From: Halomarina rubra
Lineage (GTDB): Archaea; Halobacteriota; Halobacteria; Halobacteriales; Haloarculaceae
Reading direction: 5' to 3'
Assembly (NCBI RefSeq): GCF_023699475.1
Contig: NZ_JALXFV010000003.1
Location: forward strand, 550,878-614,877
DNA length: 64,000 nt
Numbering within the stretch: position 1 is the stretch's first letter; each line of letters starts with the position of its first letter. The notes under the pieces were generated by a model. It was not told the origin of the DNA. It made no database searches and saw nothing but the letters and a program-made list of their open reading frames with translations. Below are positions 47,172 to 59,147 of the stretch, piece by piece. The translations under genes and the position numbers were made by a program.

Positions 47172-50100
47172 TCAGTCCGCTTGCTCGGGTGCCGCGAGCG
47201 GTTCGACGGCGATGGTCATCGTCACGCCCTCGACCTCCCACTCCTTGCGGTGGCCGTCCTCGACCGGGCCGAACTCCTCGGCGCGGACCTCGTTCGCGAT
47301 GAGCGCCTCGTGTTCGCGGACCAGTCCGGAGACGCGCTCGTCGGCGACGTCGAGTTCGACGCGGACCTCGCGGTCCAGGTCGAGGTCGAGGTCCTTGCGC
47401 ATCTCCTGGACGCGACGGATGACCTCGCGGGCGTACCCCTCGCTCTCGATCTCCTCGGTGAGCGAAGTGTCGACGTAGACGACCCCGCGGTCGTCGCCCG
47501 CGACGCGGAACGGCGTGGCGGCGACGCCCTCCGGCGTCTCGGTGACGAACTCGACCATCTCGTCGGTCAGGTCGACGTCCTCGCCGAGTTCGTCGGCGAC
47601 GGCGACTTCGAGCGCGTCGAGCGTCGGTTCGGAGATGCGGGCGGCGTTGAGCGCCTGCATCACCTCGCCGGCCTGCCCGCCGAAGGCGGGACCGAGCACC
47701 GACATGTCCGCCTGTGCGGAGTAGCGCAGTTCACCCCACTCCTCGCCGGGTGCGACCACGTCGACCTCGCGGGCGTTGAGGCGCTCTTCGACCAGCGCGG
47801 CGTACTCGCGGACCGCCCGCGCCGCGTCGCTGTCGTTCGCGGCGACGACGACCCGCGGGACCGGCCAGCGGAGTTTCCGTTCTGCCTGCTGGCGGGCGTT
47901 CGACCCCGCTTCCTCGACGGCGCGGAGGACGGCCACGTCGGCCTCCAGGTCGGCGTCCTGGTAGGTCGCGTCCGGTTCGGGCCAGTCGCACATGTGGACG
48001 GTCGGGTGGTCGTTCTCGCCGGTGAGCGTGCCGTACACCTCGTCGGCGACGAACGGCGCGAACGGCGCGAGCAGTTTCGTCGTCTCCGTCAGCACGCGAT
48101 ACAGCGTCGCGTAGGCGGCGGTCTTGCTGTCGGAGTCCGACTCCTCCCACATCCGCTCGCGGACGACCTGGATGTAGAACCGCGAGACGTCCTCGACGAC
48201 GAACTCGAGGAGCGCGTCGAGCGCACGGTCCTGGCGGAACTGCTCCCAGTGGTCGGTCATCTCCTCGACGGTGGTGGCGAGTCGCGACAGCACCCACTCG
48301 TCGACGAGTTCCAACTCGCACTCTTCGAGCGCCACGTCGTCCGGCGAGAACCCGTCCATCCGCATGTACGGCAGCGGGAAGCGGAACACGTTCCAGAGGA
48401 TGTTGAGGTTCCGCTGCATCGTCGCCATCTCGTCCCACGAGAAGCGCATGTCCTCGCCCTGCGGGTCGACGCCGAGCAGGAACAGGCGCATCGGGTCCGC
48501 ACCGTGGCGGTCCATCGCCTCGCTCGGCGTGACGACGTTCCCGATGGACTTCGACATCTTGCGGCCGTCCTCGGCGAGCGCCCAGCCGTGCATGAGGACC
48601 TGCTTGTACGGAATCTCGCCCATCGCGGTCGTCCCCATGCCGAGCTGCGACCAGAACCAGCCACGCGTCTGGTCGTGGGCCTCCATGATGAGGTCGGCGG
48701 GCCACAGCTCTTCGAAGTCCTCGGTCTCGCCGGGGTAGTCGAGCGTGCCCCACGACGCCACGGAGGAGTCGAGCCAGACGTCGAACACGTCCGGAACGCG
48801 CGTGTAGGTCGTGCCGTCTTCGGTGATGGTGAGGTCGTCGACGGTCGGTCGGTGGAGGTCTACCTCCTCGGGGTCGACGTCCTGGTCGACGCGCTCTGCG
48901 AGTTCCTCGCGCGTGGCGACGACCTGTACGTCGTCCATCGAGCCGTCCCACTCCTCGGGCGTCCAGATGGGGATGGGGACGCCCCAGTAACGCTGCCGGG
49001 AGACGTTCCAGTCGGGCGAGCCCTCGATGAACTTCCGGAAGCGGTTGTCCCGCGCTTCTGCGGGGTACCACTCGGAGTCTTCGAGGTTGTCGAGCATCTC
49101 CCCCTTCACGTCGGTGACGGTGACGAACCACTGGTCGGTCGCGAGGAAGACGATGTCCGTGTCACAGCGCCAACACTGGCCGTAGTCGTGGCGCGTCGTG
49201 CTCGCGCTCAGCAGGTGGCCCGTGCGGTCGAGGTCGGCGATGATGTCGTCGTTGGCGTCGCGGACGAACTGCCCCGCGTACTTGCCACCCTGCTGGCTGT
49301 AGACGCCGTCGGGGCCGACCGGACAGAAGATGTCCAGGCCCAACTCGTCGCCGCGTTCGAAGTCCTCCTGGCCGTGGCCGGGCGCGGAGTGAACCAGTCC
49401 AGTCCGGTCCATCTCGACGTAGTCGGCGTGGTACACCTCGCCCGCACCCGCGCTCTGTGGGTGGTCGGGAACCTCCTCGGGGAGTGGGTGTTCGTACGAC
49501 CAGCCGACGAGGTCCGTGCCCTGCATCGTCTCCTCGACGGTGAACTGGGTCGCCCCGGCACGCTCCATCACGTCGTCGACGACCGCTTCGGCGACGTAGA
49601 GCAGTTCGCCCTCGTAGTCGCCGCTCTCCGTGCTCTCGACGCGAACCGCGGCGTACGTCGCGTCCTCGTCGACGGCGACGAACGTGTTGGCGGGGACGGT
49701 CCAGGGGGTCGTCGTCCAGACGACGAGACTCCCCTCGCGGCCGGTCAGCGAGAACGAGACGTAGATGCTCGGCGACTCGATCTCGTGGTACTCGACCTCG
49801 TTCTTCGCGATGGCGGTCTCACAGCGCGGACACTGCGTGATGGAGCGTTTGCCACGGTCGACCAGTCCGCGTTCGTGGGCCTGGGCGAAGCCCCACCACG
49901 CGGCCTCCATGTACTCCGGCGAGACGGTCTTGTAGGGGTTCTCCCAGTCCATCCAGACGCCGAAGGACTTGAAGTCGTCCTGCAGCCCTTCGAGTTGCTC
50001 GTCGGCGAACTCCTTGCACTCCTCGATGAAGTTCTCCATGCCGAACGCCTCGATGTCCTTCTTGTTCTCGAACTCCAGGCGTTCCTCGACCTTCGTCTCG

Positions 50101-50420
50101 ATGGGGAGGCCGTGCATGTCGTAGCCCGGCCGGTCGGTGACGTCGTACCCCTGCATTCGCTTGTAGCGGATGTAGGTGTCCTTCAGGGACTTGTTCCACG
50201 TCGTCCCCATGTGGGCCGCCCCGCTCGTGTACGGCGGGCCGTCGACGAAGAAGTAGCGCTCCGCACCCTCGCGGTGTTGCTTGGTCCGTTCGTAGGCCTC
50301 GGTCTCGCGCCAGTACTCTCGCACGCGCTCCTCCAGTGCGTGCGGGTCGTACTGGTCGGGCACCTCGCCGAACCGTTCGCGGGCCGGCCCGGATGCATCC
50401 GACTCCTCGGAATCGCTCAT
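47172..50420 (-). CDS. ileS: isoleucyl-tRNA synthetase
   Basis: Charges tRNA-Ile. The 1082-residue class I synthetase has the HIGH-type motif GPPYTSGAAHMGTTWNK (His70; archaeal form), the KMSKS loop DGRKMSKSIGN (621-625), an editing (CP1) domain between them and the DWNVSRQRYWGVPIPIWTPE signature. It is of the archaeal/eukaryotic type, with a long C-terminal anticodon-binding part. ATG 50420 (MSDSEESDAS) was chosen because CCTTTAGTGA is 26 nt upstream; an in-frame ATG 24 nt further up falls inside that box. Confidence 0.97.
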   Translation of the reverse strand: MSDSEESDASGPARERFGEVPDQYDPHALEERVREYWRETEAYERTKQHREGAERYFFVDGPPYTSGAAHMGTTWNKSLKDTYIRYKRMQGYDVTDRPGYDMHGLPIETKVEERLEFENKKDIEAFGMENFIEECKEFADEQLEGLQDDFKSFGVWMDWENPYKTVSPEYMEAAWWGFAQAHERGLVDRGKRSITQCPRCETAIAKNEVEYHEIESPSIYVSFSLTGREGSLVVWTTTPWTVPANTFVAVDEDATYAAVRVESTESGDYEGELLYVAEAVVDDVMERAGATQFTVEETMQGTDLVGWSYEHPLPEEVPDHPQSAGAGEVYHADYVEMDRTGLVHSAPGHGQEDFERGDELGLDIFCPVGPDGVYSQQGGKYAGQFVRDANDDIIADLDRTGHLLSASTTRHDYGQCWRCDTDIVFLATDQWFVTVTDVKGEMLDNLEDSEWYPAEARDNRFRKFIEGSPDWNVSRQRYWGVPIPIWTPEEWDGSMDDVQVVATREELAERVDQDVDPEEVDLHRPTVDDLTITEDGTTYTRVPDVFDVWLDSSVASWGTLDYPGETEDFEELWPADLIMEAHDQTRGWFWSQLGMGTTAMGEIPYKQVLMHGWALAEDGRKMSKSIGNVVTPSEAMDRHGADPMRLFLLGVDPQGEDMRFSWDEMATMQRNLNILWNVFRFPLPYMRMDGFSPDDVALEECELELVDEWVLSRLATTVEEMTDHWEQFRQDRALDALLEFVVEDVSRFYIQVVRERMWEESDSDSKTAAYATLYRVLTETTKLLAPFAPFVADEVYGTLTGENDHPTVHMCDWPEPDATYQDADLEADVAVLRAVEEAGSNARQQAERKLRWPVPRVVVAANDSDAARAVREYAALVEERLNAREVDVVAPGEEWGELRYSAQADMSVLGPAFGGQAGEVMQALNAARISEPTLDALEVAVADELGEDVDLTDEMVEFVTETPEGVAATPFRVAGDDRGVVYVDTSLTEEIESEGYAREVIRRVQEMRKDLDLDLDREVRVELDVADERVSGLVREHEALIANEVRAEEFGPVEDGHRKEWEVEGVTMTIAVEPLAAPEQAD

Positions 50421-50945: not shown

Positions 50946-51158
50946 ATGGGACGCTACGGAGCACTCGACTACCCACGACTCGCGAAGGCCGGGTTCGCAC
51001 TCGGCGTGACGATGTTCGTCGGCGGCGCGCTCGGCGCGACGCTGATAGAAGGTCCGTCGCTCGCACACACGCTGCTCATCGACGCGGAAGCGCTCGGTAT
51101 CCTCCTCGGCCTGTTCGCCCCGCTCGTGTTCGGCGTCGTCCTCCCGCTGACGGAGTGA
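50946..51158 (+). CDS. small membrane protein, 70 residues
   Basis: Begins MGRYGALDYPRLAKAGFALG and has two hydrophobic helices (about 16-31 and 48-68). It appears conserved-like in style (compare haloarchaeal DUF7860-type proteins, from memory), function unknown. A GGAGGT Shine-Dalgarno lies immediately before the ATG and an AACGTTTTC box about 33 nt upstream, so both a leadered and a leaderless reading are possible. Confidence 0.65.
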   Translation: MGRYGALDYPRLAKAGFALGVTMFVGGALGATLIEGPSLAHTLLIDAEALGILLGLFAPLVFGVVLPLTE

Positions 51159-51219
51159 CCTGACGCCCCCGGCGCTCGCCGGCCCCGCCGACTTTCTCCG
51201 TCGGTGGCGTAGCGCGAGC

Positions 51220-51900
51220 ATGCCCACCTTCCCCGACGCCGACCAGCGACTCCCCCTCGCCGAGGACTGCCGGCGCTGTCCGGCGCTGGTCGCCGCGCGC
51301 AACCGCATCTGCTGGGGTGCCGGCCCGCGAGACGCCGCTCTCGTCGTCGTGGGCGAAGCGCCCGCCGCGGGCAGTCCCGACGCCGAGCGCTGGCGGGGCG
51401 GCAACTGGACCGGGATGGCGTACTCCGGCGGGCGCTCGGGCAAGAAGATTCGAACGATGGTCGAGGAGTTGGGCCACGAAGCGTACTACACGAACGCCGT
51501 CAAGTGCTTCCCGAGCGCCGCGATTCCCCACGGCGACCCCGAGGCCGCGGCCACGCTCGACCGCCCCTGTCACGAGACGGACAACCGAGAACCCCACCCC
51601 GAAGAACGGGCGAACTGCCGGCCCTATCTCCGCGAGGAGGTCGAGCGCATCGACCCCGACTGCGTGCTGGCGACGGGAAGACACGCCACCGAGTCGCTGC
51701 TGGCGGTCGAGGGTCGAACCGTCGACGGCTTCCTCGACCTCGTGTTGGAGCGCCAGAACTGCCCGACGCTCGGCGTTCCGGTGCTCCCCGTCCTCCACCC
51801 CTCCTATCAGGAGGTCTGGATCGCGCGTCTCGGCTACGACCGCGAGTCGTACCTCGCGGCCATCGACGACGCGCTCGCGGCGTGTGGGGTCCACAGTTAA
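51220..51900 (+). CDS. uracil-DNA glycosylase superfamily protein, Fe-S type
   Basis: A 226-residue homologue of Fe-S uracil-DNA glycosylases. Cysteines Cys17/Cys20 (DCRRCPAL), Cys96 (VKCFPSA) and Cys133 (ANCRPYL) could hold 4Fe-4S. Motif 1 reads VVVGEAPAAGSPDAERWRGG, lacking the family-4 AQED. The late motif is HPSYQEVW. About 35 residues separate the third and fourth Cys, with PCHETDNREPHPEER between, longer than in family 4. It may be a divergent glycosylase (family 5-like) or have another base specificity. Confidence 0.78.
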   Translation: MPTFPDADQRLPLAEDCRRCPALVAARNRICWGAGPRDAALVVVGEAPAAGSPDAERWRGGNWTGMAYSGGRSGKKIRTMVEELGHEAYYTNAVKCFPSAAIPHGDPEAAATLDRPCHETDNREPHPEERANCRPYLREEVERIDPDCVLATGRHATESLLAVEGRTVDGFLDLVLERQNCPTLGVPVLPVLHPSYQEVWIARLGYDRESYLAAIDDALAACGVHS

Positions 51901-51924
51901 CCCGTCGGTGTCCGTGGCGCTCAC

Positions 51925-52434
51925 ATGGACCTCTCGCACCTCGCCGACGAGGCCGTCCGCGGCACGCGCGAGTTCGTCGTCGAACGCCGCCACACGACCA
52001 CGGTGTTCGGCGAGCAGACCGACCCGCCCGGTCTCCCGGCGGCCGCGGACTCGACGCCCGACGAACACCGCCACGTCCTCGGGACGCCACACCTCCTGGC
52101 GGCCTGCGAGTTCACGGGCCGGGAGTCCCTCCACGGACTGCTCCCCGACGGGACGGGCACGGTCGGCGAACACGCCGAGGTGACCCACCGCGGGGCCGCA
52201 CCGGAGGGGGCACGGATTCGCGTCGAGACGGTCGTCCGGCGCGTCGACGGGCCGTCGGTCCACCTCGACGCGAGCGTGTCGCGAGTCGACGGAGAGCGGG
52301 GTGACGGGACCGGAGACGACCACCACGCCGAGAGCGACGGTCGCGCCACCGAGAACGACCCGCGACCCGTCGGCGAGGTGGCGATGACGTTCCGCGTCGT
52401 CTCGCGCGAGCGATTCGGCGACGCGCTGGAGTGA
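51925..52434 (+). CDS. FlK-type hot-dog thioesterase
   Basis: A 169-residue hot-dog-fold protein. GTPHLLAACEFTGRESLHGL and GTVGEHAEVTHRGAAPEGAR are the family blocks. The residues corresponding to the catalytic Thr42/Glu50/His76 of fluoroacetyl-CoA thioesterase FlK are Thr54, Glu62 and His88, with identical spacing (8 and 26). An acidic, Asp/Gly-rich insert (about 113-145) interrupts the last strands. Specificity cannot be read from sequence; most relatives are generic acyl-CoA thioesterases. It starts 24 nt after the UDG-like gene and ends 71 nt before the DehI-like gene. Confidence 0.78.
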   Translation: MDLSHLADEAVRGTREFVVERRHTTTVFGEQTDPPGLPAAADSTPDEHRHVLGTPHLLAACEFTGRESLHGLLPDGTGTVGEHAEVTHRGAAPEGARIRVETVVRRVDGPSVHLDASVSRVDGERGDGTGDDHHAESDGRATENDPRPVGEVAMTFRVVSRERFGDALE

Positions 52435-52505
52435 GCGAAGACCGCTTCGGTCCGCTCGCCAGCCGCGGGGACAACGGCTACCCGCTTCGCGTGTGACTGG
52501 AACGC

Positions 52506-53372
52506 ATGGACACCAGTCAGCAGCTGTACGAGTCGGCGGCGACGGGGTGGCGACGCGGTCTCTACGACGACGTGAAGCGGACGTTCCGCGCGCCGGTCGT
52601 CAACTGGATCTTCCGGACGGCGACGGCGAACGACCCCGAGTTCACCCGCTACGCGTGGGGGCAGGTGAAACCCGTCTTCGAGACCCGCGGGTTCGCCCGG
52701 TTCTCGGTGCAGTACCGCGACGCGGTGCTCTCGGCGCTCGACGTGCCCGCCTACCGCCCCAGCGCCGTCGACCTCTCGCCCGCGGAGTTCGCCGAACTGC
52801 GCGGCCAACTCGCCACGTTCGACGTGGTCGCCCCGCGGCTGGCGGTGCTGTTCGAGACGATGGACCGCGCGCTCCACGACGACCACGAGCCGACGCCACC
52901 CGACGAGCGGTGGGCGACCCGCCCGTTCCCCGACTGGCTGGACCGGGACCGGGGCTCGCCGCCGTCGATGGTCGAGACGCCGCCCGACGCACTCGACGAG
53001 ACGCTCGCCGCGATACGCGCGTTCCACGGCTTCGACGACGACAGCCTCCCGAGCATCTACCGCTGTCTCGCACAGTGGCCGTCGTTCCTCGACGCGCTGT
53101 GGGCCGACGTCGAACCGCTCGTCGAGAGCGACGCGTTCGAGACCGCCCGTCGCGACACCGCCGACCTGACCGACGCGTTCGTCTCCTCGACCCCGTACCG
53201 ACCGCGACTCGCGCCCGACGACCTGCGAGGAGTCGGGATGGACGACGACGCCATCGAGGGCGTACAGGGGTTGTTCCGACGGTTCAACACCGGCCCGGTC
53301 GAGACGGTGTTGCCCGCGCTCCCGGCGTTCGCGGCGACCGTCGACGCCGCGGGCGAACGGTCGCTCGGCTGA
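52506..53372 (+). CDS. DehI-family (group I haloacid dehalogenase fold) protein
   Basis: A 288-residue helical protein with the internal duplication of DehI. Repeat 1 has GLYDDVKRTFRAPVVNWIFR and repeat 2 DETLAAIRAFHGFDDDSLPS, then IYRCLAQWPSFLDALW. It aligns well by eye with Pseudomonas DehI. If I recall that sequence correctly, its catalytic Asp189 corresponds here to Ile184, which would argue against classical dehalogenase activity. Actual function unknown. Likely cotranscribed with the thioesterase gene upstream. Confidence 0.72.
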   Translation: MDTSQQLYESAATGWRRGLYDDVKRTFRAPVVNWIFRTATANDPEFTRYAWGQVKPVFETRGFARFSVQYRDAVLSALDVPAYRPSAVDLSPAEFAELRGQLATFDVVAPRLAVLFETMDRALHDDHEPTPPDERWATRPFPDWLDRDRGSPPSMVETPPDALDETLAAIRAFHGFDDDSLPSIYRCLAQWPSFLDALWADVEPLVESDAFETARRDTADLTDAFVSSTPYRPRLAPDDLRGVGMDDDAIEGVQGLFRRFNTGPVETVLPALPAFAATVDAAGERSLG

Positions 53373-53427
53373 GGGAGCGAGCCGAGGAGGACAGCCTTCA
53401 TGTCGGGGTGGTGTGACGACGCACACG

Positions 53428-54186
53428 ATGCTGGCTCCCCTCCGCCGGACCCTCCGCGAGCGCATCGACCGACGCTCGATAGCCGGCGCACTGGCGTTCA
53501 CCGCTCTCCTCGCGTGGCTGTTCGACCAGTCGTTCGGCAGCGCCGTGAACTCGCTGGCGGCCGCGGTGCTCGTCGGCGGGTCGGGCCTCGTCGCCGACGC
53601 GTACGGTCTCTCGGACGCGGTCAGACGCGTCGGACTCGGCGCGTGGGTGCTGTTGGCCGGCGGCGCGCTCGACCTGCTCGACGGCGACGCCGACGAGACG
53701 GTCGGTCTCCTGCTCGCGCTCGGCGGCGTCTGGCTCCTCCTCGACGGCGTCCAGGAACTCCGCCACGAGGGCGTCGCCGTCGCCGAGCGCGACCCGGCCG
53801 ACGGCGAGGCCGTCTACCGCCAGTACCTCGCCCAGCGTCTTCGCGAGGACCTACGCGAGCGGCCGGCGACGCGCCGCGAACTCCGAGAGCGGTTCGACGA
53901 GACGCCCGACGCCGTCGACGACGCGCTCGCACTCCTCGAACGGCGCGACCTCGTCGTCCGCGAGGGGAGCGCCTACGTCGCCCGCGACCGCGAGGAGCGA
54001 GGGTGGGGCCGACGCGCGCTCGCCCGTCTCGCTCGGCCGGTGACGCGCGAACTCGACCACGGGACGACCGCGGTCCCGTCCGACGAGACCGGTCGCCACC
54101 GGACCACGGCGTCCGACCGCCCGCCGACGGACTCGACTCGCGGGGCCGACGACCGCGAACCGGCGTCCGAGCACGTCGAACGGTAG
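53428..54186 (+). CDS. membrane protein with cytoplasmic winged helix
   Basis: A 252-residue protein. Three or four hydrophobic helices lie in the first 105 residues (SIAGALAFTALLAWLFDQSF, LAAAVLVGGSGLVADAYGL, LLLALGGVWLLLDGVQEL). A winged-helix-like segment follows (about 126-185: RPATRRELRERFDETPDAVD, LALLERRDLVVREGSAYVAR), then a basic and disordered tail. It may be a membrane-tethered regulator. ATG 53428 was chosen; GTG 53413 in frame adds five residues. Confidence 0.65.
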   Translation: MLAPLRRTLRERIDRRSIAGALAFTALLAWLFDQSFGSAVNSLAAAVLVGGSGLVADAYGLSDAVRRVGLGAWVLLAGGALDLLDGDADETVGLLLALGGVWLLLDGVQELRHEGVAVAERDPADGEAVYRQYLAQRLREDLRERPATRRELRERFDETPDAVDDALALLERRDLVVREGSAYVARDREERGWGRRALARLARPVTRELDHGTTAVPSDETGRHRTTASDRPPTDSTRGADDREPASEHVER

Positions 54187-54220
54187 CGCGGGTCACGGTC
54201 GTCGTCGGTGCCGATTGGGG

Positions 54221-54230
54221 AGGGTTTTAC
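54221..54230 (+). promoter_or_regulatory. TATA-like box of the J-domain ferredoxin gene
   Basis: AGGGTTTTAC is centred 28 nt before GTG 54254, supporting that start over the longer in-frame ATG at 54215, which lies upstream of the box. Confidence 0.55.
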
Positions 54231-54253
54231 CGACCCGGTTCCCTACTCGGTGT

Positions 54254-54949
54254 GTGGAGTCCCCGTTCGACGTACTGGGTGTCGACCCGGACGCCGACGA
54301 CGTCGCCGTAGAACGTGCTTACCGCGAGCGTGTGCTGGAGGCCCACCCCGACCACGGGGGGTCGATGCGCGAGTTCCAGCGCGTCAGAGCGGCGTACGCC
54401 GCCATCCAGGAGGACCGCCCCGAGGAGTTCGAGCGCGCCAGGCGCGAGGATACCGACGAGACGGCCACCCCGGAGGCGGCCGACGAGGGCGGTTCGGCCG
54501 AAGACGAGGAGGCCGAGGTCCCCGACGGCGTCCGCGTCGAGTACCTCGACTACGACGTGCTCGCCGACCTGGGTCTCGAAATCGACGACGAGGACCTGTT
54601 CGCGCGAGCAGCAGAGGCGGACCTCGACCGCTCGGAGTACGGCGAGATGTGGGTCCCGCACGACGAACCGCTGCTCAAGAGCGCCGAGGCCCACGGACTG
54701 ACGTGGCCCTACGCCTGCCGTGGCGGCGCGTGTTCGAACTGCGCGGTCGCGGTCCGCGGCGGCGAGATGCCGATGCCGACCGGCCACATCCTCCCCGAGG
54801 AGTGGCTGAACCGCGGCATCAGGCTCTCGTGTCTCAGCGCGCCCACCTCCGACGAGGCGCAGGTCGTGTTCAACGTCAAGCACCTCCCGGGGCTCGACGA
54901 CCTGCGACTGCCGCCCAGTCGGTTCGACAAGGCGCGACTCAACGACTGA
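54254..54949 (+). CDS. DnaJ-domain / 2Fe-2S ferredoxin fusion protein
   Basis: A 231-residue protein joining a J-domain-like N-terminus (SPFDVLGVDPDADDVAVERA, HPD at 31-33, to about 55) to a plant-type 2Fe-2S ferredoxin through an acidic linker (55-95). The cluster cysteines are Cys155, Cys160, Cys163 (YACRGGACSNCAV) and Cys193 (RLSCLSA). The ferredoxin part resembles the halophilic ferredoxins that serve 2-oxoacid oxidoreductases. GTG 54254 is set by the TATA position. The J-domain may recruit DnaK or simply be a docking helix bundle. Confidence 0.87.
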   Translation: MESPFDVLGVDPDADDVAVERAYRERVLEAHPDHGGSMREFQRVRAAYAAIQEDRPEEFERARREDTDETATPEAADEGGSAEDEEAEVPDGVRVEYLDYDVLADLGLEIDDEDLFARAAEADLDRSEYGEMWVPHDEPLLKSAEAHGLTWPYACRGGACSNCAVAVRGGEMPMPTGHILPEEWLNRGIRLSCLSAPTSDEAQVVFNVKHLPGLDDLRLPPSRFDKARLND

Positions 54950-55343: not shown

Positions 55344-56651
55344 TCAGTCGTCGGCGGGGACGGCGCGGTCGTTGACGCCCGTGGACGTCCGGTGGTGGAG
55401 CCACGCCGCACAGCCGACGGCGACGAGGCCCGTCAGCGTCGCCAGACCGAACGCGACGCGGTAGCCGCCGACGGTGTAGACCCGCGCGCCGTCGATGGTC
55501 TCGCCGGTCCAGTAGGCGTCGAGGACGGCACCCATCAGCGCCGGGAAGACGGCCGCGCCGAAGTAGCCGATGGAGTTGATGGTGCCCGTGACGGTGCCGC
55601 TGGCGCTGGCGGCGTGGCGCTCCTTGGCGACGGTGAACGCCAGCACGGTTCCCCCGTTGGTGAACAGCGCGAGGAACAACAGCGCGCCGAAGACGGGGAG
55701 TGGCGGCGTGACGAGGACGAACACCGCGCCGTAGGCGAGCGTGAACAGCACCGTCGAGGCGAGGATGACCTCGGTGCGTCGCCCGACGCGGTCCGACAGC
55801 GTGCCGAGGACGGGCGGGCCGAGCAGGAACCCGACGTTCGCGACGAGGACGTACAGCGAGGCGGTGGCGACGCTCTCGCCGTAGACGTCGGCGATGTACG
55901 GGACGCCCCACAGTCCGAGGACGGTGAAGTTCGTCCCGATGACGAAGAACAGCATCCCACCCAGCAGCCACGTCTCGCGGTCGGCGAGGACGTGCCGGAC
56001 GTTCCGCCAGAGCGTCGCGAGGTCGACGGTCCGCCCCGGCGGCGTCGCGCCGTCGACGGGGTCGAACCCCGCCTTCGCGGGCGAGTCCCGGACGAGCGCG
56101 TAGACGACGACGGCGACGACGGCCCCAGCGACGGCGGTGACGAGCAGCGCGTCGCGCCAGCCGACGGCCGCGACGGCGAGCGCGAGCGGCGTCGCCGCGA
56201 ACACTCCGCCGAGGCCGGCGGCGGCGACGGTCCAGCCGGTCATCGTCGCGAACTGGTCGCGCCGGAACCAGTTCGCACAGAACCGGAGGGTGGCGATGTA
56301 ACAGACGCTCCCGCCGACACCGACGAGGGTGCGCCCGACGAACCCCGCCGCCAGCGAGTCCGCGAGCGCGAACCACGCGACGCCGAGGCTCATCACGGCG
56401 ACGCCGGCGGCAGCCACCCGACGGGACCCCGCCCGGTCGGCCAGCACTCCGGCGGGCAACTGGAGGGCGGCGTAGACGTAGAAGAACGACGCGTGGAGGA
56501 GGCCGAGTTCGGCGGCAGTGGTGTCGAATGCGCGGGTCAGGTCGGCGGCGAGCACCGCCGTCGAGACGCGGTGGAAGTTGACGAGCAGGAACCCCACCGC
56601 GAGGACGGCCCACAGCAGCCACCGCCACCGGTCGCGCGTCCGACGTGTCAT
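55344..56651 (-). CDS. MFS transporter
   Basis: A 435-residue major facilitator with 12 predicted helices. The loop 2-3 signature is GVLADRAGSRRVAAAGVAVM, and the second half repeats it as GTLSDRVGRRTEVILASTVL. The N-terminal helix contains FHRVSTAVLAADLTRAFDTT, resembling nitrate/sugar-phosphate or ACS-type transporters. Substrate not determined. ATG 56651 is preferred; an ATG 27 nt upstream is in frame. No partner gene is adjacent. Confidence 0.88.
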   Translation of the reverse strand: MTRRTRDRWRWLLWAVLAVGFLLVNFHRVSTAVLAADLTRAFDTTAAELGLLHASFFYVYAALQLPAGVLADRAGSRRVAAAGVAVMSLGVAWFALADSLAAGFVGRTLVGVGGSVCYIATLRFCANWFRRDQFATMTGWTVAAAGLGGVFAATPLALAVAAVGWRDALLVTAVAGAVVAVVVYALVRDSPAKAGFDPVDGATPPGRTVDLATLWRNVRHVLADRETWLLGGMLFFVIGTNFTVLGLWGVPYIADVYGESVATASLYVLVANVGFLLGPPVLGTLSDRVGRRTEVILASTVLFTLAYGAVFVLVTPPLPVFGALLFLALFTNGGTVLAFTVAKERHAASASGTVTGTINSIGYFGAAVFPALMGAVLDAYWTGETIDGARVYTVGGYRVAFGLATLTGLVAVGCAAWLHHRTSTGVNDRAVPADD

Positions 56652-57789: not shown

Positions 57790-58704
57790 CTAGCGCTCGC
57801 CGAGGAACCGTTCGGCGGTGTCGTGGAACAGGTCGCGGTAGACGTCGTCCGCGAGGTCACGCGAGAGCAGGTGCTCGCGCTCGCTGACGTAGCTGTGGGG
57901 AATGTTCGGGTAGTCGGAGCCGTAGAGGATGCGTTCGCTGTGGCGCTCGAACACGCTGTCGGGAACACTGGCGGGGTCGAACGCCATCGCCTCGCCGACG
58001 GCGCTCGACATGGCGAAGCAGGTGTCGAGGAAGGCGTTGTCGTGGTCGGCGAGGACGTCGACGAACGCCTCCCACTCGAACGTCCCCATGTGTGCACAGC
58101 ACGCCCGCACGTCGGGGTACGACTCGACGACCGTTCGGAACTTCTCGACGCCGACGTAGGGGCTGTCCTCGAACAGCGGCGCGGTGCCGGCGTGAAAGAG
58201 GACCGGTCGGTCGTGTTCCGCCGCGAGTTCGTAGGCGGGGTCGAGTCGCGGGTCGTCGGGCGCGAGTTCCTGGACGGGACACTGGAACTTCAGGCCGCGT
58301 GCGCCCGCCTCGAACGCCTCGTTCACCACGGCTCCGACGTCGTCCTCGCCGTGGACGGTGGCGAACGGGACGACCATCTCGGAGGTCTCGGCACGCTCGG
58401 CGACCCACGCGTTCAACTCGCGGGCGATGCCGGGTTTGTGGGCGTACGGCAGCGCACAGTAGCGTTCGACGCCCGCCGCCCGGAGCGCGCGCTCCATCTC
58501 GCCCTGCGTGCTCGGGTGGGGGAACGACCACCCCGCGTCGTCGGTCAGCGCCCCCCTGATGGCCGCGATGAGGCGTTCGGGCATGAGGTGGACGTGGCAG
58601 TCGATGGCGGGGACGAACCGCCCGTCCGGCGTTCGGTCGGTCGCCGTCGCGTCGCCCGCGTCCCGTTCGGTCGCATCGTGGTCCCCGCCCTCGTCGGCGT
58701 TCAC
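57790..58704 (-). CDS. amidohydrolase-family metal-dependent hydrolase (ACMSD-like)
   Basis: A 304-residue TIM-barrel hydrolase of the amidohydrolase_2 group. Metal motif IDCHVHLMPE near residue 35, LFHAGTAPL (third His), ACCAHMGTFEWEAFVD (fourth) and the late Asp in LYGSDYPNIPHSY. The order is that of 2-amino-3-carboxymuconate semialdehyde decarboxylase and related decarboxylases/hydrolases. Substrate unknown. The N-terminal about 30 residues are an acidic tail. GTG 58704 overlaps the ogt stop by 4 nt. Confidence 0.83.
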   Translation of the reverse strand: MNADEGGDHDATERDAGDATATDRTPDGRFVPAIDCHVHLMPERLIAAIRGALTDDAGWSFPHPSTQGEMERALRAAGVERYCALPYAHKPGIARELNAWVAERAETSEMVVPFATVHGEDDVGAVVNEAFEAGARGLKFQCPVQELAPDDPRLDPAYELAAEHDRPVLFHAGTAPLFEDSPYVGVEKFRTVVESYPDVRACCAHMGTFEWEAFVDVLADHDNAFLDTCFAMSSAVGEAMAFDPASVPDSVFERHSERILYGSDYPNIPHSYVSEREHLLSRDLADDVYRDLFHDTAERFLGER

Positions 58705-59147
58705 GGCGTCTCGACCCCCTCGTGGTCGAGCAGTCGTCGCTTCGTCGCCAGTCCACCCGACGCGGAGTACCCTCCGAGACTCCCGTCGGCGGCGACGACC
58801 CGATGACACGGGACGACCAGCGGCAGCGGGTTGCGACCGCACGCGCCGCCGACGGCGACGGGCGCGGTGTCGAGGTCGGCCGCGAGGTCGCCGTAGGTAC
58901 GGGTCTCGCCGAACGGGATGGCGCTCATCGCCCGCATCACGCGTCCCGTGAAGTCGTCGGGGTAGGCGACGGCGCAGTCGAACGTCTCACGCTCCCCGCG
59001 TTCGTACCCCTCGACCTGCTCGCGGAGGTCCTCCGCCGAGCAGTCCAGTCGAGTTACGTCGAGGTCGAACGTCGCGCCGAACGCCTCGACGGTGACGGTC
59101 CCCGTGTCGGCTCCTGACTCCGTCGGCTCCGGCGTCTGAGATGCCAT
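58701..59147 (-). CDS. ogt: methylated-DNA-[protein]-cysteine S-methyltransferase
   Basis: Repairs O6-methylguanine by suicidal transfer of the methyl group to Cys114 in VVPCHRVVAADGSLGGYSAS. The 148-residue protein has the helix-turn-helix block GRVMRAMSAIPFGETRTYGD and the asparagine hinge in GRNPLP. The usual RAVG is changed to GGACGRN (an extra Cys103 near the active site). The N-terminal domain is short. Its stop overlaps the amidohydrolase GTG by 4 nt, forming a two-gene unit. Confidence 0.92.
   Translation of the reverse strand: MASQTPEPTESGADTGTVTVEAFGATFDLDVTRLDCSAEDLREQVEGYERGERETFDCAVAYPDDFTGRVMRAMSAIPFGETRTYGDLAADLDTAPVAVGGACGRNPLPLVVPCHRVVAADGSLGGYSASGGLATKRRLLDHEGVETP

Follow-up and report, generated by a model that had tools for sequence, protein, structure and literature searches.

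The DehI fold and the FlK and DehI protein families are already known. For the group I 2-haloacid dehalogenase HadD, the published account names Asp205, the water-positioning Asn131, Tyr134, and Trp48 as catalytic residues, with Ser204 adjoining Asp205 (PMC5780510), and the DehI family has been described as 6_1 knotted in a second report (PMC11184937). Here we analyze a stretch of 64,000 nucleotides from Halomarina rubra (contig NZ_JALXFV010000003.1, positions 550,878 to 614,877; "the window" below means this whole stretch), in which a gene for a DehI-like protein follows a gene for a putative FlK-family thioesterase. Our reading, to which we give a probability of about 0.42, is that the DehI-like protein is a member of a haloarchaeal branch with a remodelled pocket and takes part in metabolizing short monocarboxylic acids, probably 2-substituted ones, together with a type II HAD (haloacid dehalogenase) protein and, in some genomes, a Na+/acid symporter, but not by the DehI mechanism. 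The features concerned are as follows.

51925-52434, + strand: gene for a putative FlK-family hotdog acyl-coenzyme A (CoA) thioesterase, 169 amino acids, over the PF22636 cut-off
52084-52086, 52108-52110, and 52186-52188, + strand: codons of T54, E62, and H88 in the FlK-family gene
52435-52505, + strand: spacer between the FlK-family gene and the DehI-like gene, 71 nt, read from the sequence
52506-53372, + strand: gene for a DehI-fold protein of the haloarchaeal branch, 288 amino acids, over the PF10778 cut-off
53055-53057, + strand: codon of Ile184 in the DehI-like gene, at the site of the DehI catalytic Asp

Both genes are real, since other genomes hold orthologues whose frames are open. The first-pass annotation had placed a DehI-fold gene 71 nt downstream of the thioesterase gene on the same strand, and the coordinates, the family profile, and the structural model all agree with this. 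The protein matches Pfam DehI PF10778 at E 2.1e-30 (106.1 bits, cut-off 28.9), and an AlphaFold2 (AF2) model made from 49 haloarchaeal sequences, with a predicted local distance difference test score (pLDDT) of 95.3, overlays on HadD (5h00) with Z 26.9 and a root-mean-square deviation of 3.0 over 272 aligned residues. The same model matches DehI (3bjx) with Z 25.1 over 276 residues and DL-DEX Mb with Z 24.8. As modelled, the protein has the complete DehI fold of two repeats. We also considered an AhpD-like relationship, which is too weak to use (2ouw, Z 3.4 over 57 residues; E 3.2e-5 for one stretch).

The protein differs from the described dehalogenases at the catalytic aspartate. Ile184 occupies the position of DehI Asp189 and HadD Asp205, as had been noted from the sequence alone, and both a profile alignment and a multiple alignment place it there. 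Across 49 haloarchaeal sequences (the window protein plus 48 others, with the short L163 and the locus L114, which repeats the window, dropped), this position is Ile in 40, Val in 8, and a gap in 1, and the catalytic Asp appears in 0/49. Of the 43 loci in a second set, which overlaps the first and takes 37 from named contigs and 6 from plasmids, 36 have Ile there, 4 have Val, and 3 have a gap; the 37 relatives came from a contig scan whose patterns were built from haloarchaeal conserved stretches, and all are titled archaea. We therefore reject a local peculiarity or a misalignment as the explanation of Ile184, with 48/49 sequences carrying Ile or Val and both the profile alignment and the overlapping set in agreement.

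The remaining catalytic positions of HadD are altered too. Asn131 corresponds to A109 in the window protein (Ala 35, Gly 8, others 6 in the 49 sequences), Tyr134 to L112 (Leu in 49/49), and Trp48 to V31, and Ser204 is retained as S183 (Ser 45, Thr 3, and gap 1 of 49). In the bacterial sequences compared, Asp and Asn are retained in 4/4; the bacterial members in our sample are two plasmid matches and the solved structures. The haloarchaeal pocket has fixed residues of its own, Asn33 (49/49) and Trp34 (46/49), and Arg37, Asp106, and Arg111, which are close in sequence to pocket positions, are conserved. In the tree, the 49 haloarchaeal and the four bacterial sequences are parted by a fully supported and very long branch; as letter make-up is unlike in three of the bacterial rows, only the split itself is used here.

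These replacements could mean that the site has decayed or that it has been rebuilt. Pocket positions were transferred by alignment, and 10/13 HadD positions could be mapped, with 284, 285, and 288 falling outside the aligned letters. The mapped positions have a mean entropy of 0.59 bits vs 1.33 bits for positions 13-275 of the haloarchaeal alignment, and 0.3 percent of random position sets reach an entropy as low (P 0.003), a caveat being that random sets ignore the location of the pocket in conserved motifs. Because the pocket is better conserved than the rest of the protein, it looks repurposed, not decayed: conserved yet remodelled. A decaying relic is also rejected on the grounds that the frame is open in 24/24 genomes of the window's taxonomic family bearing the gene and that pocket conservation is above average, one short copy being known. 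That copy (L163:7494-8054, - strand, genome G030) has a DehI-like frame of only 186 amino acids, about two thirds of the full length. Structure prediction of the DehI-like protein, which the first-pass annotation had suggested as a check, recovers the DehI fold in full; by alignment, the catalytic Asp site is Ile, and the pocket contains no obvious general base. Judged by its residues, the haloarchaeal protein is very unlikely to carry out DehI chemistry, in which Asp activates a water molecule.

The upstream protein matches Pfam FlK PF22636 at E 1e-13 (51.7 bits, cut-off 27). Its T54, E62, and H88 align with T42, E50, and H76 of the FlK chains, in agreement with the FlK triad spacing that had been read from the sequence. 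E62 and H88 are invariant in 17/17 aligned sequences (the window plus 16 orthologues, excluding L118, whose frame is shifted, and L169 and L171, whose frames are too long), and Ser replaces T54 in 8 rows of a 19-row alignment. The frame of the excluded orthologue at L118:6977-7360 (+ strand) diverges from the family past its middle; that genome is 73 percent complete, and the divergence may be a sequencing error. Gly81 is invariant and stands at the position of Gly69, a residue that matters in FlK. Phe36 in FlK has a gate role for fluoroacetyl-CoA; the window protein has His48 there, at a position that is variable among orthologues.

The AF2 model of the thioesterase (pLDDT 86.8) matches TM0581 (Z 18.9), Taci_0573 (18.2), TTHA0967 (17.4), and FlK itself (3p3f, 17.1). 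The PF22636 profile is over its cut-off in 5/14 control genomes as well, for example those of Thermotoga maritima and Corynebacterium glutamicum. As far as residues can tell, the T-E-H triad marks an acyl-CoA thioesterase of the FlK family. It says little on fluoroacetyl-CoA, because the family is present in the controls, TM0581 and Taci_0573 are closer than FlK, and Phe36 is replaced by His48; with the same controls over the cut-off and other FlK-family hotdogs nearer in fold, the spacing is rejected as a fluoroacetyl-CoA signature.

Taken at its strongest, the idea of a haloacid pair holds that the DehI-like protein dehalogenates 2-haloacids in the usual way and that the FlK-family enzyme cleaves haloacyl-CoA (fluoro- or chloroacetyl-CoA), so that the two detoxify together. 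The DehI fold, the FlK triad, and the type II HAD and acid symporter genes found beside DehI relatives (see below) would all suit such a pair. It nevertheless has to accommodate Ile or Val at the Asp site in 48/49 sequences, the loss of the Asn131, Tyr134, and Trp48 counterparts, His48 in place of Phe36, and two bacterial proteins structurally nearer to the thioesterase than FlK, and we consider it highly improbable.

Haloarchaeal DehI genes elsewhere have recurring neighbours. Predicted genes from 60 stretches were grouped into clusters, and each cluster lying no more than 1.5 kb from DehI was counted, with no families preselected. The 50 DehI loci come from 49 genomes and 23 genera; genes in other genomes were called by codon usage, and this caller missed DehI in several loci, which phmmer recovered, as well as HAD genes, which were added in the same way. 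Ranked by genera, the commonest neighbour is a type II HAD gene directly adjacent to DehI, in 12/50 loci and 6/23 genera. It lies downstream in 5 of these 12 loci, upstream in 2, and divergent in 5, and at least 3 changes among labelled rows of the DehI tree are required to account for the HAD label. The second is an acid-type sodium:solute symporter (PF00474), in 7/50 loci and 5 genera; 6 of the 12 HAD-adjacent loci have it within this distance. Next come major facilitator superfamily (MFS) and FlK genes, each with 7 loci in 3 genera, and a ligase cluster reaches 4 loci in 2 genera.

On named Natrialbaceae plasmids, DehI stands in a run that comprises acyl-CoA dehydrogenase, 3-hydroxyacyl-CoA dehydrogenase, thioesterase, AMP-binding protein, DehI, type II HAD, a hypothetical protein, symporter, universal stress protein, a methylmalonyl-CoA mutase family protein, and a B12-binding protein. 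The thioesterase of plasmid pHTUR01 from Haloterrigena turkmenica is of the 4HBT type; one HAD-linked DehI relative from this species is WP_012945425.1. The B12-dependent mutase of the Natrialbaceae cluster was weighed as a candidate 2-hydroxyisobutyryl-CoA or isobutyryl-CoA mutase, but it is over an NCBIfam cut-off only for the general methylmalonyl-CoA mutase domain. Three other plasmids carry DehI with no HAD in the stretch seen, and elsewhere DehI occurs in stretches with thiolase or CoA-transferase. In G237, which belongs to the window's genus, the genes for HAD, the small partner, the symporter, and the mutase stand together (L272 and L278), far from the FlK-DehI pair.

Two HADs from DehI clusters score 149 and 164 bits against NCBIfam TIGR01428 (haloacid dehalogenase type II, cut-off 125), a third is also over the cut-off, and DehIVa is matched at E 1.8e-28 by a HAD that adjoins DehI in a different genome of the window's genus. 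We compared 54 distinct HAD genes (from 63 rows; 13 from DehI loci, 41 others) at the counterparts of D10, T14, R41, S118, K151, S175, N177, Y157, and D180 of L-DEX. R41, S118, K151, Y157, and D180 are retained in 13/13 HADs of DehI loci and in 41/41 others. D10 and T14 are retained in 11/13 HADs of DehI loci (lost in L124, unreadable in L123 with a stop in frame) and again in 41/41 others.

The symporter co-occurs with DehI. It is present in 8/292 genomes of a class sample, 6 of these among the 32 with DehI (Fisher 2.6e-5, inflated by genome relatedness), and in 6/146 genomes of the window's family, 5 of them with DehI (Fisher 4e-4, similarly inflated). It also occurs in 9/50 HAD loci (47 distinct genes), and all 9 are in DehI-bearing genomes. 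In the three symporter genomes that lack DehI (G358, G181, G246), no HAD was found near the symporter in the short surrounding stretch. The nearest NCBIfam models of the symporter are the VC_2705 type, ActP, and monocarboxylate carriers, all under cut-off, and only PF00474 is over; the small gene before it matches Pfam DUF4212 below cut-off in the one copy tested.

Because a dehalogenase family and an acid-type symporter recur beside DehI, we favour 2-haloacids or close 2-substituted acids as substrates, with halogenated acids the leading candidate. In the scheme that we propose, the symporter would bring the acid into the cell and the HAD enzyme would strip the halogen by means of its Asp nucleophile. 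The DehI-fold protein would then act on the same class of acid with other residues, its pocket presenting Asn33, Trp34, and Ser183. Acid wrongly loaded on CoA would be freed by a hotdog thioesterase, of the FlK family in Halomarina and of another type on the Natrialbaceae plasmids; the thioesterase that recurs beside DehI, FlK type here and 4HBT on pHTUR01, fits such a release of acid from CoA. We infer the substrate class, the order of the steps, and the role of the thioesterase. As gene order, the neighbourhoods support a module for short-chain acids, possibly haloacids, and neither DehI chemistry nor fluoroacetyl-CoA specificity. The first-pass annotation had suggested that the two genes handle halogenated or otherwise toxic short acids or acyl-CoAs. 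The broad idea is reasonable in view of the HAD (12/50) and symporter (7/50) counts and the linkage in 10/11 genomes described below, but its narrower version, an FlK-DehI haloacid pair, is not borne out: the catalytic residues are replaced, the FlK family is broad, FlK sits in its block without DehI, and co-occurrence outside the genus gives p = 0.12.

Several observations weigh against our reading. The association of neighbours is a sign of a shared process, not of a substrate, and the remodelled pocket offers no obvious general base. HAD is absent beside DehI in 38/50 loci, and in 32/43 of the second set. A HAD relative (E up to 1e-20) is found in 209/292 class genomes with or without DehI, and the HAD therefore does not serve DehI alone. 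The queries used to fetch HAD and symporter loci moreover came from DehI clusters, which favours such clusters, and only part of the HAD copies was fetched. Since the Asn177 counterpart is replaced in 54/54 distinct HAD genes and the Ser175 counterpart in 46/54, haloacid hydrolysis by the cluster HAD itself is uncertain. In one locus (L124:113-793), the HAD beside DehI has both the nucleophile Asp and the next Thr replaced (VASYGPL); a second HAD that retains both lies 6.6 kb further on. In the window's own genome, the best HAD match is on another contig (G000:C15) and no symporter match was found at 1e-60, so a module there, if it exists, is scattered. Finally, an FlK orthologue is in the fetched stretch of 10/50 DehI loci and in none of the other 40/50, some stretches being cut by contig ends, and in the second set FlK is near DehI in 3/43 loci (two Halomarina and one metagenome-assembled genome matching the window's genus) and in none of the other 40.

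The same neighbourhoods could instead reflect ordinary catabolism of branched or short acids, of the isobutyrate or propionate type, with no role for halogen and with the HAD partner used otherwise too. The Natrialbaceae run reads as beta-oxidation, with its acyl-CoA dehydrogenase, AMP-binding ligase, B12-dependent mutase, and B12-binding protein; thiolase or CoA-transferase turns up in DehI stretches elsewhere; the symporter's nearest models, although under cut-off, include acetate and monocarboxylate carriers; and the L-DEX Asn177 counterpart is replaced in the HADs. Yet three cluster HADs are over the curated type II cut-off and most L-DEX residues are retained. The first motif of this HAD family has Tyr at the position of the second Asp of phosphatases. 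The ligase cluster is also rarer beside DehI than HAD (4 loci in 2 genera vs 12 loci in 6 genera). We regard this explanation as unlikely.

Two upstream genes bear on how FlK and DehI came to be neighbours.

51220-51900, + strand: uracil-DNA glycosylase superfamily (UDG) gene, PF03167, ending 24 nt before the FlK gene
47172-50420, - strand: IleS, which with UDG marks the block holding FlK even without DehI

UDG, FlK, and DehI-like genes form a run of three on the + strand (51220-53372) with gaps of 24 and 71 nt. Neither a sigma-70-like promoter nor an intrinsic terminator was found in 51100-54300, archaeal promoters being outside the coverage of that scan. The UDG gene itself (51220-51900) is far under the NCBIfam cut-offs (type 4 UDG, 69.7 vs 250; UdgX, 51.7 vs 190).

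Among the 146 family genomes, DehI is present in 24, FlK orthologues (E < 1e-20) in 19, and both in 11, of which 10 have the two genes no more than 3 kb apart. The close cases comprise every one of the 8 window-genus genomes, together with G378, where the distance is 1.5 kb, and G036, where the genes are convergent, 0.1 kb apart, and at a different locus. When the window's genus is excluded, co-occurrence within the family comes down to 3 genomes and is not significant (p = 0.12). In the class sample of 292 genomes, DehI is present in 32, FlK over cut-off in 20, and both in 7 (Fisher 0.003, inflated by genome relatedness); 4/7 have the genes within 3 kb and 3/7 have them far apart. The distance is about 87 kb in G037 and about 1 Mb in G070 and G125. 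The adjacency that the first-pass annotation had asked to be checked in other haloarchaea is, as linkage within 3 kb, present in 10/11 family genomes with both genes, but 8 of these are one genus, the class gives 4/7, and 10/50 DehI loci have an FlK orthologue in the stretch fetched. The FlK-DehI linkage recurs at two other places of the DehI tree, yet it is neither obligate nor general.

FlK has a place of its own. The order PRPP (phosphoribosyl pyrophosphate) synthase-IleS-UDG-FlK occurs without DehI in L172 (G070), and in L173 (G245) FlK follows IleS, with no UDG in the gene calls there; the gene order around FlK is conserved in L116, L117, L119, L120, L122, L127, and L172. In our reading, FlK is the older resident of the block and DehI the newcomer. 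Because FlK occupies the UDG/IleS block without DehI, the adjacency could be positional: FlK would be a general short-chain acyl-CoA thioesterase of an old block, beside which the DehI-like gene landed in the Halomarina lineage, with no shared pathway. This account draws on the DehI-less blocks of L172 and L173, the large distances in G070, G125, and G037, the p of 0.12 outside the genus together with the 8 of 10 close cases from one genus, and the second set, where all three close loci are tied to Halomarina. It sits less well with the DehI genes of G036 (convergent, other locus) and G378, which are linked to FlK but lie outside the window-genus DehI clade, with the at least 4 changes that the FLK label needs among labelled rows of the DehI tree, and with G320 of the window's genus, where symporter, its small partner, and HAD genes fill the FlK-DehI gap. 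We hold a purely positional origin to be possible, though doubtful.

In a bolder form of our reading, haloarchaea would hold a second kind of DehI with the same fold and a rebuilt site that does not use Asp-activated water. With type II HAD and an acid symporter it would make up an archaeal module that handles short haloacids or related acids substituted at position 2, to which an FlK-family thioesterase was added in Halomarina; we think this rather unlikely. None of the literature matches listed describes a haloarchaeal DehI, a haloacid module, a rebuilt pocket, or a DehI-HAD-symporter link, subscription journals being mostly outside that coverage. In public records these proteins carry the name 'halocarboxylic acid dehydrogenase DehI family protein', which implies a function that the residues contradict. 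In the haloarchaeal branch, nature offers a DehI fold whose pocket has been rebuilt and yet is conserved. Its HAD and acid-type symporter neighbourhood makes short-acid uptake and dehalogenation in haloarchaea concretely testable, as well as what the DehI fold does without its Asp.

Four further genes lie downstream in the window. A + strand gene (54254-54949) encodes a DnaJ domain fused to a 2Fe-2S ferredoxin, which scores 151.6 against NCBIfam haloarchaeal ferredoxin Fer (cut-off 150). On the - strand are an MFS transporter (55344-56651), which NCBIfam places nearest to galactonate, phosphoglycerate, and lactate carriers, in each case under cut-off, an Amidohydro_2 protein (57790-58704), and a protein with an O6-methylguanine methyltransferase DNA-binding domain (58701-59147, PF01035).

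The proteins compare with known systems as follows. With HadD AJ1, DehI, and DL-DEX Mb (group I, PF10778), the DehI-like protein shares the whole two-repeat fold (Z 24.1 to 26.9 over 272 to 277 residues) and the Ser204 counterpart, S183, but identity is 16 to 20 percent, the Asp, Asn, Tyr, and Trp are replaced, and the haloarchaeal branch has its own invariant set, including N33, R37, R71, D106, R111, H174, and Q190. The thioesterase has the hotdog fold, the T-E-H triad with its spacing, and the Gly at the Gly69 site in common with FlK of Streptomyces cattleya (PF22636), whereas identity is about 24 percent and His48 replaces Phe36; its nearest folds are the bacterial TM0581 (2q78, Z 18.9) and Taci_0573 (3qoo, Z 18.2), titled thioesterase-like or hot-dog-like. 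L-DEX YL and DehIVa (HAD type II, TIGR01428) match the HAD beside DehI in another genome of the window's genus, but no such HAD lies in this window, and the Asn177 counterpart is replaced in all HADs and Ser175 in most. The layout of a haloacid catabolic cluster, with permease and dehalogenases, is not in the window; in related loci, HAD stands beside DehI in 12/50, 6 of them with the symporter within 1.5 kb.

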